Assembly (NCBI GenBank): GCA_030595925.1
Contig: JAUVLC010000098.1
Location: 1 to 9,038, forward strand
DNA: 9,038 nt
Reading direction: 5' to 3'
From: Clostridia bacterium
GTDB taxonomy: Bacteria > CBDUZB01 > JAGLHV01
In this document: piece by piece, positions 1,867-8,882 of the stretch
Position numbering within the stretch: position 1 is the first letter of the stretch
Layout: every line of letters begins with the position of its first letter
The notes under the pieces: model-generated
What the model saw: the letters and a program-made list of their open reading frames with translations, nothing else
Told to the model about the DNA's origin: nothing
Databases searched by the model: none
Program-made: the position numbers and the translations under genes

Positions 1867-1927
1867 AATGATTGGTAATTTAAGTAATACGATGTTAATG
1901 TCAAGTAATTTTGAAAAGGAAACAAGA

Positions 1928-2296
1928 ATGGAAAAAAACAGCAATATTCTTATTGTCGACGATGATAAAAGAAGCAGTGAAATACTGGGGGCGATATTAA
2001 AAGATGAAGGGTATAAGATAATTTGTGTTGAAACTATTGCCCGGGCAAAAGAAGAAGCAGCAGCAAATCTTTATCATTTGGTTTTGGTTGATATTAAGCT
2101 TTCCGATGGGTCGGGGTGGGAATTATTAAAGGAAATAAAAAAAATAAATGAAAAAATAATAGTAATTATTTTGAGTGGTATTGTTACTATGGAAAATTCA
2201 GATAAGGCAATCAATGAAGGCGCTTTTACTTTTATGCAAAAACCATTTGATGTGGACGAATTGAAAGCAACAATTAAAAAGGCACTGAAAATATAA
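1928..2296 (+). CDS. Receiver-only response regulator (CheY-like)
   Basis: A 122-aa stand-alone receiver domain. Visible motifs are the acidic cluster D11-D13 (ILIVDDD), phospho-acceptor D55 (LVLVDIKLSDGSG), the switch Ser83 (IILSG), the GAF-x-FMQKPF segment and the conserved K105. No DNA-binding or enzymatic output domain follows. The ATG at 1928 is chosen because AAAGGA at 1915-1920 sits about 7 bases upstream and the product then begins just ahead of the first beta strand. An in-frame ATG at 1868 would add 20 unrelated residues and has no ribosome-binding site. The gene lies 79 bases before the large sensor kinase gene, on the same strand, and is a natural phosphoryl acceptor for it. It probably relays signal by protein contact or as part of a phosphorelay. 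Confidence 0.9.
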   Translation: MEKNSNILIVDDDKRSSEILGAILKDEGYKIICVETIARAKEEAAANLYHLVLVDIKLSDGSGWELLKEIKKINEKIIVIILSGIVTMENSDKAINEGAFTFMQKPFDVDELKATIKKALKI

Positions 2297-2375: not shown

Positions 2376-5300
2376 ATGAATGAAAATAAAATCTCGATTT
2401 CTAATTATGAAGTTGTCAAAAAACTCGGAGAAGATACCCAATCGATTATTTATAAAGTTTTTAGTAAAAAAGACCCTGAAAAACCGTTAGTTTTAAAAAT
2501 TTTAAAAGTTAGTTATCTTCCCGAACATCGAAAAATACATTTCCATCAAAAAATTGAACGATTAAAAGTTTTAAAAGATCCTCTACTAATGAAGCCTTTG
2601 TCTTTTGAAGTCCAGAAAGATATTCCCTTTATCGTTCGGGAATATTTTGATGGTATTCCTCTTAATGAATGGGCTTTAACTCAGGATAAAGTTTCTTTAA
2701 GAGATTTTTTTACGATAAGTTGTCCTTTAATTCAAGCATTAAATAAAATCCATGAAGCGGGTATTATTTATGGGGGTGTTAAACCGCATAATATATTAAT
2801 TAATCCCGGGACACTGGATATCCGATTAATTGATTTTATATCTTCCATAGATGTTAGGGAAATAAGTCATTTTATTTACGACCGTTCATTTGTTGAGGGG
2901 ACTTTGGCTTATACATCTCCGGAACAAACCGGCCGGATAAGCCATCGCGTGGGATTTTCTTCCGATCTGTATTCTTTAGGGATTATTTTTTATGAATTAT
3001 TAACCGGTAAACTTCCTTTTTTTTCCCTTGATCCCCTGGAATTGATCCATTCTCATCTGGCGGAACAAGCTGCCGATCTTAGCGAATTAAATCCTGAAAT
3101 TCCGCAAATGATAAGTAAGATTGTATCCAAATTGATTTTAAAACAGCCGGAAAAACGGTATCAAAATGCTAATGTACTGCTTACGGATATTATACATTGT
3201 CGTGACGAATATTTGAATAAAGGAATTATTGCTGAATTTTCTCTGGGTAGTGATGCTTATAATCGACGAATTACCTTTGTTTCAAAAATGGTAGGACGGA
3301 GAGATGAAGTAAAAATAATTTTAAATGAATACGAGGAGGTAAGTAAAGGGTTTTTCCGTTCTTTATTTATTTCCGGTTTGCCGGGTATCGGAAAAACCCG
3401 GCTGATTCAGGAACTGCAGAAACCAATTATTGAAAAAAGAGGGTATTTTACTTCCGGAAAATTTGACCTTTACCAAAAAAATGTTCCTTATAGCGCAGTT
3501 ATTCAGGCTTTACGTAATTTAATTCGTACATTATTGACCGAAAGTAATCAAAGGGTTAAAATCTGGAAGAGGAAAATAACCGAAGTTTTAGGGGTAAATG
3601 CTAAAATTATAGCGGATGTTATTCCTGAGTTAGAAATACTGATTGGTTATCAGCCGGAGGTTAAATCACTTCCTCCGGTGGAATCAAGGAATCGGTTCAA
3701 TGATCTTTTTGGTAAATTTTTAGGTTGTTTGGCTAGCAAAGAAAATCCTCTTATTTTATTTATTGATGACCTTCAGTGGGGAGATACAGCCACTTTTGAT
3801 TTTTTGGAGAATGCTTTTACCAGGTATGAACATTATAATTATCTTTTTTTCATTGGGGCTTATCGTTACAATGAAGTAGATTCCGGCCATTCGTTAATCC
3901 GACTGATACAAAAAGTTAAAGAAAATAAACAGCCTATAGAACAAATTAGATTAGGTCCATTGGAACATAAATATTGTCATGAGATGGTGGCTTATATTCT
4001 TGATTCGCCTCTTTCCCAAAATGAAGAATTATCTGTTTTTATTACTGACCTTTCAGAAGGGAATCCTTTATTTGTCAATGAAATTTTATCTTATCTCCAT
4101 AATGAAAGTTTGATTTTTTTGGACAAAAAACAGCATTGGCAATGGGATTTCAATAAAATACGGGAAACAAATATGCCCTCTACGGTAGTGGCTCTTTTTA
4201 GTGCTAAAATGCAAAAATTACCTCTTTTAACTAAAGACTTACTTGAATATTGTGCTTGTATGGGTAATCTTTTTTCGCCTACTGATGTTTCGATGGTTAA
4301 GGAAATAACGTTGGGAGGTACTTTTGAGATTTTAAAACCCGCTTTAGCCCAGGGCCTTTTAATGGAGAATAAAAATGATTTACAGTTTGTCCATGACCGG
4401 GTACAGGAAGCTGTTTTAAATAAAATTGATTATGAAAAAAGGAGACAGATACATTGGACTATAGGAAATCATTTGTTATCGCGTATTGCTGAAGGAACGG
4501 ATCTGGAAAAGCTGGATTATCTTTTTTCCATAGCAAACCATTTAAATATAGGACGCCCAAAAACATTGGATAGTGAGACTGCTTATCATTTGTCAACAAT
4601 AAATTATAAAGCGGGGAATAAAGCTTTGGCTGCCTTAGCGGCAAAAGCAGCGAATGAGTATTTTAAGTTAGCCAGAGAAATGCTTTCTGATGACTGTTGG
4701 AAAATTAATTACGAGGAAACCTTTAAGATTTATCAAAAAGCAGCAAAGACGGAATTAATGTGTGGTAATTATGATAATTCCGAGAAGTTACTTAATCGAT
4801 TATTGGATAATGCCAAAACGGATATGGATAAAGCAGAATGTTTGGCAGAACAGACTACTTCTCTTTCTTCAATAGGGGATTTTATTAAAGCCATTGAAAC
4901 AGCCAATCGTGGTTTGGATTATTTTAATAAATCAATACCGGTCAATTCCGAAGAAGCAGAGCAAAAAAGAGAACAGCAGATGAAAGAGATAGAATCTAAA
5001 GATATTGATATTTGGGATACAATTCTTAATATGCCTGTTACTAAAGACCGAAGGGGAAAAATTGAATTATCTTTTTATAGTGAACTCATTCCGGATTTAT
5101 ATATGTCGGGCTTTGTTTCTCAGTTGTATCTTTCTGCAGTGCAGTCAACTCAACAATGTTTGATCGGAATAATGGATGAGTCGGTAATTTATTCTTTTTC
5201 TATTATGGGTCTTTATTTAGCCGAAAAAGGTGAGTTTGAAGAAGCTTTTAAATACGAAGATCTTGCCCGGAATTTATGCGAAAAATATCCCAATACTTTT

Positions 5301-7649
5301 GGTGCTACCCGGGGGATGAACGGGATAGTCTGGTGTAATATGCATTCCCGGAGTCATCCCGAAGAGATAGTTAATTATTGCCTGAAGTCTATTCAGTGCG
5401 GTAAAAATTCGGGAGACCTTTATAATGCAGGACTTTCTTATGGTCCGTTAATGTGGAATTTACAGGTGCAGGGCGTTGATTTTTTGAAAATTCAGGAATA
5501 TGCCCGGGAATGTTTGGATTTTTCTAATAAATATCATTTATATTTTTCCGTTCATCTGGCAGAGGCAATGCAGGCTTCCTGGATAGAACCAATGAAAAAA
5601 GATTATATGCCTATTTCAATGGAGGAAAAATTAAAACAATGGGAAAAAGAAAATCATATTGCTTCGGTAGGGAGTTATTATGTGCATATGGCTCTTTCCT
5701 ATTATTACTTCGGAGAATATGAAAAAGCTGAAGAGTTTTTACAAAAGGTCAAACATTATTTAACCGGTTTGACCGATAATGTATTAAAGCGGCAATGGCA
5801 TGTTTTTTTAGTACTTAATGCCTTGCGTTTGTATGAACGGGGAATTAAATATAAGGACAGAGAAAAATTAATAGCCTATATTCAGCCGTTGATAAAGAAA
5901 ATTGAGATATGGGCTCATTTGGGGCCGTTATTAAAACCCTATCTTATTTTCGTTTATGCGGAAAAAGAACGGGTGATAGGAGATTTAAGAGAAGCCAGAA
6001 ATTTGTATTTTGATGCTATCAGTATGGCTTGTCAATACCGCTATACATTTTTAGAAGGATATATTAATGAATGTCTGGCGGAATTTATTACCGATCTTTC
6101 TGATTTTGCTAAAATTTGTCCCAAATATGAGGAATGCCGGGAGAAAAAGCCGCATTGTGATAGATGGTGGATTTGTTCTACTGAAGAAGACTGTACAAGA
6201 GAAAAACCTCGTTATGAAGGATTGAAAAGTGTTTTTTTGAAAGAGGCAGTTTTTTTGTATAAAAAATGCCATGCAGAACAAAAAGAAATATACTTGAAGA
6301 ATAAATATTCGCAATATTTTGAAAAAGAAATGCCGGTTGTTTTATCTCCTGCTTTGGCTGCGGAATCAGTGCTTCCCAATATTGATATAAACTATTTGAT
6401 GAAATCCTGCCTGGTTATTCCCGCAGAAATGGGGGAAGATGTTATTTTGCATAAGATTATGAATGTTGTTCTGGAAAGTTCCGGAGCTCAGCATGGATAT
6501 TTGATTATGGAAGAAAACGGCGATTTAATTATTCGTGCCGAGAGCCATATTACTGAGAAGGATGTAGTGCGAGCGGTAAACAAAAGGTCTGAAGATTGCA
6601 AGGAGATATGTCATGCTATTGTTCGCTATGTATATCGGACTAAAGAAATGGTATTATTGGAAAATGCTTTGGAGAAGGGGGCATTTAAGGATAATCCCGA
6701 AGTTCAGAAAATGAAGCTTAAATCAGTGCTTTGCCTGGAGATTGTTAAGCAGAATAAATTAGTGGGAATTCTTTATCTGGAAAATCGTTTAGCCGATTCG
6801 GTATTTACCGCAGAAAGAATAGATTTGACTAAGTTATTTACTTATCAGGCAGCTATTTCTCTGGAGAATGCGCGATTGTTAGAACGGATGAAGCAGACGG
6901 AATCTATGCTGCAACGGCATCGTGAACACTTGGAGGAGATGGTGGAACAGCGAACCCGTCAATTGCGTAAAACCCAGGAAGATTTATTGGTGGCAGAGCG
7001 ATTAGCAACGCTGGGACAATTAGCAGGAAGTATATCGCATGAGATTCGCAATCCTCTCAGTATTATTAATACCTCAGCCTATTATCTTAAGATGAGACTG
7101 GGAACAGCGGATGAGGATTTACGCCAACATATTGAATTTATAGAGACTGAAGTAAAAAAATCAGCCTTGATTATTGACAGTCCTTTAAGCCTTTCAGGAA
7201 TGAAAGATCCTCACAAAGAAAAAATAAATCTGATAGAAGTGATTAATTCTGTAATTGATTCCTCGGAAATATTAAATAAAGTAAAGATGACTAAAAATAT
7301 ACCGGAAGAAGAAATTTTTATAAATGCCGATAAAGAACAACTTTATATGGCTTTCAATAATATTATTAAAAATGCGGTGGAATCAATGGGGCAGGGTGGA
7401 ATGTTCACGATAAATGTTTTATTGAAAGGGGATAAACAGGTTAGAATATCATTTATGGATACCGGAATGGGTATTACCCCTGAAAGTATTGATAAAATAT
7501 TTCAACCCTTGTTTACCACTAAAACGCGGGGATTTGGATTTGGCCTTTCCATTTGTAAAATGATTTTTGAAAAACACAAAGGAAGTATTAACATTAAATC
7601 CAAAGTCGGTCAGGGAACAGAAGTAATCATAATCTTACCCCTTGCATGA
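2376..7649 (+). CDS. Trifunctional-type Ser/Thr (pseudo)kinase / AAA ATPase / sensor histidine kinase
   Basis: A 1757-aa cytoplasmic signalling protein with no membrane segment. Order: Ser/Thr-kinase-like domain (about 10-275); AAA_16/MalT-like ATPase (about 305-600) with Walker A GLPGIGKT (334-341), Walker B LILFIDD (459-465) and GNPLFVNE (562-569); TPR-like helical region (about 690-1240); five-Cys insertion (1248-1273); GAF (about 1350-1497) with KSVLCLEI and LYLEN; coiled coil (about 1497-1540); HisKA with H1555 in SHEIRNP; and HATPase_c with N1666, DTGMGI (1695-1700) and GFGFGLSI (1719-1726). The C-terminal histidine kinase looks complete. The N-terminal kinase keeps K41, K136, N139, D153 and the GTLAYTSPEQTGR segment. 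However, its catalytic triplet is Y132-G133-G134 (Asp lost), DFG reads DFI, and the Gly loop keeps only G18, so it is probably a pseudokinase. AAGGAG at 2361-2366 supports the ATG at 2376. Receiver genes on both sides are the likely partners. Confidence 0.93.
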   Translation: MNENKISISNYEVVKKLGEDTQSIIYKVFSKKDPEKPLVLKILKVSYLPEHRKIHFHQKIERLKVLKDPLLMKPLSFEVQKDIPFIVREYFDGIPLNEWALTQDKVSLRDFFTISCPLIQALNKIHEAGIIYGGVKPHNILINPGTLDIRLIDFISSIDVREISHFIYDRSFVEGTLAYTSPEQTGRISHRVGFSSDLYSLGIIFYELLTGKLPFFSLDPLELIHSHLAEQAADLSELNPEIPQMISKIVSKLILKQPEKRYQNANVLLTDIIHCRDEYLNKGIIAEFSLGSDAYNRRITFVSKMVGRRDEVKIILNEYEEVSKGFFRSLFISGLPGIGKTRLIQELQKPIIEKRGYFTSGKFDLYQKNVPYSAVIQALRNLIRTLLTESNQRVKIWKRKITEVLGVNAKIIADVIPELEILIGYQPEVKSLPPVESRNRFNDLFGKFLGCLASKENPLILFIDDLQWGDTATFDFLENAFTRYEHYNYLFFIGAYRYNEVDSGHSLIRLIQKVKENKQPIEQIRLGPLEHKYCHEMVAYILDSPLSQNEELSVFITDLSEGNPLFVNEILSYLHNESLIFLDKKQHWQWDFNKIRETNMPSTVVALFSAKMQKLPLLTKDLLEYCACMGNLFSPTDVSMVKEITLGGTFEILKPALAQGLLMENKNDLQFVHDRVQEAVLNKIDYEKRRQIHWTIGNHLLSRIAEGTDLEKLDYLFSIANHLNIGRPKTLDSETAYHLSTINYKAGNKALAALAAKAANEYFKLAREMLSDDCWKINYEETFKIYQKAAKTELMCGNYDNSEKLLNRLLDNAKTDMDKAECLAEQTTSLSSIGDFIKAIETANRGLDYFNKSIPVNSEEAEQKREQQMKEIESKDIDIWDTILNMPVTKDRRGKIELSFYSELIPDLYMSGFVSQLYLSAVQSTQQCLIGIMDESVIYSFSIMGLYLAEKGEFEEAFKYEDLARNLCEKYPNTFGATRGMNGIVWCNMHSRSHPEEIVNYCLKSIQCGKNSGDLYNAGLSYGPLMWNLQVQGVDFLKIQEYARECLDFSNKYHLYFSVHLAEAMQASWIEPMKKDYMPISMEEKLKQWEKENHIASVGSYYVHMALSYYYFGEYEKAEEFLQKVKHYLTGLTDNVLKRQWHVFLVLNALRLYERGIKYKDREKLIAYIQPLIKKIEIWAHLGPLLKPYLIFVYAEKERVIGDLREARNLYFDAISMACQYRYTFLEGYINECLAEFITDLSDFAKICPKYEECREKKPHCDRWWICSTEEDCTREKPRYEGLKSVFLKEAVFLYKKCHAEQKEIYLKNKYSQYFEKEMPVVLSPALAAESVLPNIDINYLMKSCLVIPAEMGEDVILHKIMNVVLESSGAQHGYLIMEENGDLIIRAESHITEKDVVRAVNKRSEDCKEICHAIVRYVYRTKEMVLLENALEKGAFKDNPEVQKMKLKSVLCLEIVKQNKLVGILYLENRLADSVFTAERIDLTKLFTYQAAISLENARLLERMKQTESMLQRHREHLEEMVEQRTRQLRKTQEDLLVAERLATLGQLAGSISHEIRNPLSIINTSAYYLKMRLGTADEDLRQHIEFIETEVKKSALIIDSPLSLSGMKDPHKEKINLIEVINSVIDSSEILNKVKMTKNIPEEEIFINADKEQLYMAFNNIIKNAVESMGQGGMFTINVLLKGDKQVRISFMDTGMGITPESIDKIFQPLFTTKTRGFGFGLSICKMIFEKHKGSINIKSKVGQGTEVIIILPLA

Positions 7650-7858: not shown

Positions 7859-8381
7859 GTAGTTGCCCAATGAACTTGTGCTGAGTGTAATCGAAGTATT
7901 GGGCAGAAATATTTAATGAGTAAACAAAATGAGAATAACAAAAAATATCCGTTTAGATGAGTATGATTATAGAAGTAATGGGTATTATTTTATAACTATA
8001 TGCACAAATTATCGACGACCATATTTAATTGGTGAAAAGAAAAATGTAGTCGCTCAATTTATTGAGCAGATACCGATAAAGACAAAAGGCGTGAAATTGG
8101 ATTACTATGAAATTATGTCCACACATATTCATAAGATATTAATTTTGGAAAGTAGTGAACTAAAACTTGGTGAAATCGTTCGTCGATTTAAAGCAAGGAC
8201 TAAAAGGGTTTTTGGTTTTAGTTTGTGGCAACCTAATTATTATGAGCATGTGATTAGAAATGATATGGCATTATCTAAAATTCGTGAATATATTAGAAAT
8301 AATCCTGAAATAGAAAAAATAGAATTTAAACAATTTTATGATAAAGATAAACAAATACAGCCTCATAAATGAGGCAACTAC
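7859..8381 (+). mobile_element. RAYT-carrying REP element with 9-bp inverted ends
   Basis: The element is bounded by GTAGTTGCC (7859-7867) and its complement GGCAACTAC (8373-8381). Each end carries a subterminal hairpin: TGCCCAAT/ATTGGGCA (7864-7871 with 7898-7905, 26-nt loop) on the left and GCCTCAT/ATGAGGC (8360-8366 with 8369-8375) on the right. This recalls IS200/IS605 ends, which are also hairpins recognised by an HUH-Y1 transposase. Between them lies the RAYT gene. The gene-less units on both sides have the same ends and linker, so they look like short non-autonomous relatives. Sequence matching both edges extends outward (7796-7870 and 8348-8421), so the exact transposition unit cannot be fixed from this copy. 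Confidence 0.7.
7929..8372 (+). CDS. REP-associated tyrosine transposase (RAYT, Y1/HUH family)
   Basis: A 147-aa single-domain protein of the Y1_Tnp/IS200-like superfamily, which nicks and rejoins single-stranded DNA at REP hairpins through a 5'-phosphotyrosine. The N-terminal RLDEYDYRSNGYYFITICT (8-26) is characteristic of RAYTs. The metal-binding HUH motif is H66-I67-H68, and the probable nucleophile is Y121 in REYIRNNP (119-126). The usual MPNHxH context reads MSTHIH here. YYEHVIRND (104-112) is also typical. Length is at the short end for the family but no domain seems missing. No convincing ribosome-binding site precedes the ATG at 7929, implying weak expression. The last six codons and the stop (8370-8372) lie inside conserved REP linker and hairpin sequence. 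Surrounding REPs are its expected substrates. Activity cannot be judged from sequence. Confidence 0.88.
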   Translation: MRITKNIRLDEYDYRSNGYYFITICTNYRRPYLIGEKKNVVAQFIEQIPIKTKGVKLDYYEIMSTHIHKILILESSELKLGEIVRRFKARTKRVFGFSLWQPNYYEHVIRNDMALSKIREYIRNNPEIEKIEFKQFYDKDKQIQPHK

Positions 8382-8409: not shown

Positions 8410-8496
8410 GTAGTTGCCCAAATTATTGGGCAGAAATGTAAACAAATACAGCCTCATACATTCGACAAGCTCAGTACAAGTTCATGAGGCAACTAC
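8410..8496. repeat. REP pair (BIME-like unit), right copy
   Basis: This unit has the same architecture as the left one. GTAGTTGCC (8410-8418) enters hairpin TGCCCAA-ATTA-TTGGGCA (8415-8432). The linker CAGAAATGTAAACAAATACA follows (8431-8450). The inverted REP has stem GCCTCAT/ATGAGGC (8451-8457 with 8484-8490), a 26-nt loop extension (8458-8483), and GGCAACTAC (8488-8496). It ends only four bases before the ribosome-binding site of the downstream response regulator gene. Confidence 0.8.
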
Positions 8497-8516
8497 ACAA
8501 GAAGGGGAGAAAAGAA

Positions 8517-8882
8517 TTGGTTAAAAAACTTAAAGTATTGGTAGTAGATGACAATGAAAAATTGCGTAAAAATCTGCTGGATATTCTTCAATTAAAAGGA
8601 TATGATGCCCTTGGAGCTGAAAATGGGTATCAAGCCATAGACGCAGTAAAGACGCATCAATTTGATGTTATTCTTTTAGATATTAAAATGCCGGGGATGA
8701 ATGGGGTGGATACTTTAAAGATTTTGAGGGAAATTGTTCCCAATATAATGGTTATAATGGTTACCGCTTTTGCCGACGACGCTTTTTATAAAGAAAAACT
8801 GAAAAATATTAATTTCAAAATTATCCAAAAACCTATCGATATGAAGAAATTGTGGACATTGTTGGAAAAGATAAATAATTGA
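8517..8882 (+). CDS. Receiver-only response regulator (CheY-like), probable TTG start
   Basis: A 121-aa single receiver domain. It has D11/D12 in VLVVDDN, phospho-acceptor D55 in ILLDIKMPGMNG, T83 in MVTAF and K105 in IIQKPIDM. There is no output domain. GAAGGGGAG (8501-8509) lies about 7 bases before a TTG at 8517, after which the protein starts VKKLKVLVVDD, a normal receiver N-terminus. An in-frame ATG at 8484 exists but falls inside the REP hairpin and would add 11 unrelated residues, so TTG is preferred. D55, S/T83 and K105 fall at the same positions as in the receiver at 1928-2296, which is consistent with both serving the same histidine kinase. The REP/RAYT block separates it from that kinase gene by more than 860 bases, so co-transcription is uncertain. 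Confidence 0.88.
   Translation: MVKKLKVLVVDDNEKLRKNLLDILQLKGYDALGAENGYQAIDAVKTHQFDVILLDIKMPGMNGVDTLKILREIVPNIMVIMVTAFADDAFYKEKLKNINFKIIQKPIDMKKLWTLLEKINN

Follow-up and report, generated by a model that had tools for sequence, protein, structure and literature searches.

The large sensor protein encoded in the window, the whole 9,038-nucleotide stretch of DNA from a Clostridia bacterium that was analysed, begins with a Hanks-type kinase-like domain that lacks the catalytic Asp and retains the kinase fold, and the same loss is a fixed state of a clade of related proteins. The domain is probably a regulatory switch in place of an enzyme and not a decayed gene, because the same loss is kept in relatives from about ten phyla. 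A sequence-only reading of this DNA had described the loss of the catalytic residues and had proposed a ligand-binding or scaffolding role that feeds the ATPase and the histidine kinase. The observation holds, and the case is stronger than that reading made it, since the loss extends over the entire clade. The interpretation is reasonable and partly supported, with ligand binding, scaffolding, and the feed to the ATPase and histidine kinase remaining putative. The features of the sensor gene and its partners are given in Table 1.

Table 1. Features of the sensor gene and of the neighbouring response regulators, in window coordinates.
Feature	Position	Strand	Basis
Pseudokinase-AAA-TPR-GAF-histidine kinase sensor ORF, 1757 aa	2376..7649	+	ORF and Pfam
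Hanks-type kinase-like domain, residues 11-268	2406..3179	+	Pfam Pkinase 5e-30; AlphaFold2; structural matches
Degenerate Gly-rich loop LGEDTQSII, residues 17-25	2424..2450	+	Alignment
Beta3 Lys41	2496..2498	+	Retained in 73/74 of the HGG clade
Lys59 at the alphaC Glu column	2550..2552	+	PDB alignment and clade alignment
Catalytic loop YGGVKPHN, residues 132-139, Gly134 at the catalytic Asp position	2769..2792	+	
DFI, residues 153-155, at the DFG position (Asp retained, Gly gone)	2832..2840	+	
Clade-specific activation-segment block D159...SHFIYD...F172	2850..2891	+	Clade alignment
AAA_16 ATPase, residues 305-493; Walker A GLPGIGKTRL and Walker B LFIDDLQW intact	3288..3854	+	Pfam
GAF domain, residues 1353-1497	6432..6866	+	Pfam
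HisKA dimerisation/phosphoacceptor domain, residues 1546-1607, H1555 in SHEIRNP	7011..7196	+	Pfam
HATPase_c, residues 1652-1756; N and G boxes intact	7329..7643	+	Pfam
Upstream single-domain response regulator, probable partner	1868..2296	+	Response_reg 5e-22; same place in L034 and L039
Downstream single-domain response regulator, possible partner	8484..8882	+	Response_reg 2.5e-26; same place in L039

The motifs quoted in the sequence-only reading are found in residues 1-290 at the numbers that it gave, namely LGEDTQS with G18, K41, Y132-G133-G134, K136/N139, and D153-F154-I155, and the fold markers GTLAYTSPEQTGR and SSDLYSLGIIFYELLTGKLPF are present as described. The catalytic loop is expected to read HRDxKPxN and is YGGVKPHN in the window, and DFG has become DFI. 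In a PDB sequence search, IIYGGVKP of the window falls on IIHRDVKP of PknB from M. tuberculosis with no gap, thus the position of the catalytic Asp is occupied by Gly134, in agreement with the earlier assignment. An alternative Asp that could substitute within the catalytic loop was looked for and none was found there; D159 and D169 are conserved, but they are located in the activation segment. The PDB alignment also places residue 59 on E59 of PknB in an ungapped stretch, and this alphaC Glu column, which the earlier note did not mention, features Lys in the window. Of the features expected of an active Hanks-type Ser/Thr kinase, the domain therefore retains the beta3 Lys and the DFG Asp (K41 and D153), lacks the catalytic Asp (Gly134, with Asp in 0 of 77 aligned clade members), and lacks the alphaC Glu that pairs with the beta3 Lys.

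Residues 1-290 form a full Hanks-kinase fold. An AlphaFold2 model of the kinase-like domain was built from 68 sequences and features a bilobal kinase fold with a mean pLDDT of 84.9 and a pTM of 0.87. The best structural matches of the model are the bacterial kinases PknB and Stk1, with Z scores of ~28 over ~260 residues, which indicates that the kinase fold is complete. Pseudokinases in the PDB were not prominent among the structural matches, a result that is uninformative either way. The activation segment is modelled as helical at residues 160-168 and 170-175 with moderate confidence (pLDDT ~61-78). The motif losses, which are clade-wide, and the complete kinase fold together support the earlier assignment of the domain as a pseudokinase by sequence with a retained fold.

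A scan of 84,980 species genomes with peptide patterns that left out the catalytic loop retrieved 80 loci with 49-96% identity, and both the catalytic-loop Asp and the Gly of DFG are absent in all 80. A sequence artefact or assembly error was considered and rejected, as the motif recurs in these 80 loci, some of them in isolate genomes that are complete or nearly so. The norm of the clade is HGG[IV]KPHNIL, with HGS, HGN, and HAG as rare variants, and Tyr in place of His at position 132 is restricted to the window and its nearest relatives. The proposal that a clade might share the YGG/DFI signature is thus borne out for the loss of the Asp and of the DFG Gly, which is clade-wide, but not for the Tyr, since the norm is HGG. 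Among the aligned members, Asp at position 134 and the Gly of DFG are each found in 0 of 77, beta3 Lys41 is kept in 73 of 74, Asn139 in 77 of 77, and the DFG Asp153 in 74 of 77 (Gly replaces it in two members and Asn in one). K136 is kept almost without exception. At the alphaC Glu column all 77 members have Lys or Arg, whereas Glu is found in 22 of 26 relatives with an HKD catalytic loop, so the Lys-Glu pair of active kinases is absent from the clade. The Gly-rich loop is less informative. It had been read as a mark of inactivity, however, the argument is non-specific because HKD-bearing relatives have degenerate loops too: G18 is found in 1 of 22 HKD relatives versus 67 of 76 members of the HGG clade, and G20 in 2 of 22 versus 9 of 76.

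The clade also features a second motif that is absent from the earlier note, the activation-segment block D159-x4-S164-H-F-I-Y-D169-x2-F172. This block is near-invariant in the HGG clade, with D159 invariant and D169 near-invariant. It is kept in a sister clade with HKS or HKG in the catalytic loop and is absent from HKD-type relatives. That the block has been kept across such diverse bacteria suggests a function gained after catalysis was lost. According to the record titles, about ten named phyla are represented among the members: Pseudomonadota (mostly Methylococcales), Desulfobacteria/Deltaproteobacteria, Omnitrophota, Auribacterota, Acidobacteriota, Nitrospirota, Methylomirabilota, Bacillota, Bdellovibrionota, and Schekmanbacteria. 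Many of these are metagenome-assembled genomes whose labels carry a binning risk, and isolates such as Methylobacter tundripaludum SV96 and Methylomonas sp. LW13 are free of that risk. For the genome of the window, two same-genus genomes were found and every other relative offered is kin at the domain level only, which suggests that the source organism represents an isolated lineage.

The kinase domain is under strong purifying selection. Comparison of the window with two same-genus members gave dN/dS values of 0.087 and 0.144 for the kinase domain, similar to the values of 0.152 and 0.128 for the whole protein. Of the columns of the kinase domain, 62 are near-invariant across 58 full-length members, and the mean identity to the window is 0.57 for the kinase domain, 0.67 for AAA, 0.57 for GAF, 0.27 for HisKA, and 0.31 for HATPase, which makes the histidine kinase less conserved than the N-terminal core.

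Three sources supplied the HKD relatives: another 398 genomes from the phylum that includes Methylobacter luteus, plasmids of cyanobacteria and rhizobia, and the first genome search. Trees were built on the kinase and ATPase regions, a quick tree with the catalytic columns masked and a careful tree with the catalytic, alphaC, and activation-segment columns masked. Under this masking the HGG proteins group as a single clade with a support of 99/98. The sister of this clade is the small HKS/HKG clade, which belongs to Methylococcales (support 100/100), and the two together are separate from all HKD-type members with a support of 100/100. HKD relatives of the CP1/HstK type fall outside the HGG clade. 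The presence or absence of the Asp is one change on the tree, and the simplest reading is that there was one ancient loss of the catalytic Asp. The rhizobial members feature the opposite pattern, in which HKD and the Gly of DFG are kept and the beta3 Lys and the Asp of DFG are lost, which indicates that branches of the family have lost different catalytic residues; plasmid members from rhizobia, Microvirga, and Paraburkholderia (L175-L178 and L180) have the same architecture, with HKD kept and the beta3 Lys and DFG Asp lost. The earlier view that family members as a rule have the catalytic-loop Asp was overstated, given these rhizobial losses and the ~40% of the CP1 family that are classed as pseudokinases in a 2025 review of bacterial pseudokinases (PMC12599244). 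Carriage on mobile elements was also considered and rejected. Among the phage matches listed, query coverage is at most ~40% and is confined to the kinase part, and the plasmid matches are below 60% identity, those fetched being HKD-type members of the wider family or members without the beta3 Lys.

The pseudokinase, ATPase, TPR, and GAF regions form a core that stays constant, and it is the output that varies. The outputs found on this core include HisKA, HisKA_2, PAS with a histidine kinase and receiver, and GGDEF-EAL, and some members have none. In L084 and L104 the pseudokinase-ATPase-GAF core is followed by PAS-GGDEF-EAL in place of the histidine kinase. Proteins from L052, L055, and L072 stop at or just past the GAF domain, and in L052 and L072 the next gene encodes a histidine kinase with receiver domains. 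Of 59 informative loci, 48 have a response-regulator-like gene that starts no more than 300 nt downstream; those without one include several with a GGDEF-EAL output or a receiver already aboard. In the genus of the window the sensor gene is flanked by response regulators on both sides. A regulatory role of the pseudokinase in cis agrees with the conserved core, with outputs that can be exchanged, and with the response regulators next to the gene.

Several other features of these loci were observed. In Methylobacter luteus an adjacent response regulator (L057:13107-13892) has a C-terminal KaiB domain. A Cys-rich insert, CPKYEEC...CDRWWIC, is located at 6117-6176 of the window between the TPR and GAF regions; it is confined to the genus of the window and a few relatives, among them L043 and L041, and is possibly a metal site. 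An IS200-like/REP-associated tyrosine transposase gene (7929-8372) lies between the sensor gene and the downstream response regulator. In the close relative L039 this interval is shorter by ~590 bp, and a short repeat lies on either side in the window, which suggests that the insertion is recent. Positions 269-1840 encode a hydrophobic protein of 523 amino acids, apparently of a multi-spanning membrane type, that has no Pfam match.

The reading that we favour, with moderate confidence, is that the domain is a conserved pseudokinase and not a Ser/Thr kinase, and that it would bind a ligand without phosphotransfer and act in cis as an allosteric gate. The ancestor of the HGG and HKS/HKG clades would have been a Hanks kinase of the CP1 type, joined to an AAA ATPase, that lost three residues (the catalytic Asp, the Gly of DFG, and the Glu of alphaC) and gained the fixed activation-segment motif D-x4-SHFIYD. 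It would have kept the beta3 Lys and the Asp of DFG and, in the HGG clade, the Lys and Asn of the catalytic loop. The pseudokinase may then bind a nucleotide or other ligand without transferring phosphate, and its change of conformation would gate the neighbouring core of STAND-like ATPase, TPR, and GAF; that the pseudokinase touches the ATPase is assumed from their fusion. The core would set the activity of the attached output domain, which in the window is a histidine kinase predicted to phosphorylate the neighbouring receiver proteins. The degenerate Gly-rich loop and the missing DFG Gly are at odds with strong nucleotide binding, which could be weak or absent. A broader and more tentative form of this reading, which is possible but clearly less probable, is a portable ATP-dependent switch without phosphorylation, or a different ATP chemistry, in which K41, N139, D153, and the activation block would control several unrelated outputs (two histidine kinase classes and c-di-GMP enzymes) through one core.

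Other explanations are weaker. A pure scaffold would bind no nucleotide and serve as a rigid protein-protein platform, comparable to EssB/YukC. The degenerate Gly-rich loop and the loss of the DFG Gly and alphaC Glu agree with this, as does the surface-type activation-segment block, which is the most clade-specific of the conserved features, and the review groups CP1 with families in which all three motifs have diverged and ATP binding is nearly always lacking (PMC12599244). However, the nearly invariant retention of K41, K136, N139, and usually D153 is hard to explain without a function for the pocket, and we consider a pure scaffold rather unlikely. Less probable still is an active enzyme with an unusual route, either a weak phosphorylation of proteins in which another residue serves as the base, or a different ATP-dependent chemistry such as an AMPylation like that of SelO or a glutamylation like that of SidJ. 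Weak activity persists in some proteins without the HRD Asp (PMC4718504), and SelO and SidJ are precedents for such reuse (PMC12599244); the Lys, Asn, and DFG Asp are retained and D159 and D169 are candidate acidic residues. Both are in the activation segment, however, away from the position of the base, the catalytic loop has no Asp, and no SelO-like feature was seen in the sequence or structural matches of this PknB-like fold. A relic that is decaying without a role, as the lost catalytic residues and occasional truncated or frame-shifted copies such as L081 might suggest, is very improbable, since the low dN/dS, the 62 near-invariant columns, the clade-specific invariant motif, and the retention across about ten named phyla rule against it.

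The closest described family is CP1, in which a Hanks domain is linked to a COG3899 ATPase and to GAF/FhlA or PAS domains; the family mixes active-looking members with pseudokinases that have varied motif losses and no known function (PMC12599244). The window protein features a Hanks domain, an AAA_16 domain at residues 305-493 with Walker A and B motifs that is a candidate ATPase of the COG3899 type, and a GAF domain, and its relatives have both GAF and PAS domains. Judged by the architectural features tested, it fits the CP1 kind. Unlike CP1, the HGG clade is uniformly degraded in one fixed pattern (HGG, DFI, alphaC Lys, and the SHFIYD block) and its range extends well beyond cyanobacteria and proteobacteria. 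This signature does not appear in the published CP1 text, figure logos aside (PMC12599244). As pseudokinases are already reported in CP1, the HGG clade would be a sharply defined new form. The window protein also shares the architecture of the HstK/cbSTKIII dual kinases of cyanobacteria, which feature an N-terminal kinase domain, GAF, and a C-terminal histidine kinase (PMC2176072), and its H, N, and G boxes are present. Residues 1-740 are homologous to the cyanobacterial trifunctional kinases, with ~34-37% identity to cyanobacterial members. However, the cyanobacterial members examined keep HKD and DFG or DFS, and the window protein has neither and features no competent Ser/Thr kinase site.

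Function is known for few of the bacterial pseudokinases that have been catalogued. The HGG clade is widespread, uniform, and strongly constrained, is found in cultured methanotrophs (Methylobacter and Methylomonas), and has assayable outputs in one chain, so it offers a direct test of dead kinase domains as bacterial allosteric switches over two-component and c-di-GMP signalling. The eukaryotic counterpart of such switching is JAK JH2. In JAK2 JH2 the HRD Asp is replaced by Asn and ATP is bound with micromolar affinity; the partner of the beta3 Lys is the DFG Asp and not the alphaC Glu, and the activation loop features a helix (PMC4718504). The JAK JH2 domains and the domain of the window have in common a replaced catalytic Asp, a retained beta3 Lys and catalytic-loop Asn, and an unavailable pair of Lys and alphaC Glu. 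In both, the pseudokinase is in one chain with effector domains, which JH2 regulates and which the domain of the window is predicted to regulate. There is no kinship between JAK JH2 and the HGG proteins, and the effector here is an ATPase with a histidine kinase or c-di-GMP enzyme. By analogy, JAK JH2 is nevertheless the nearest mechanistic parallel, and the residue pattern is compatible with an ATP-binding regulatory pseudokinase. The domain is most likely an allosteric, possibly ATP-binding, switch with an architecture like that of JAK JH2.
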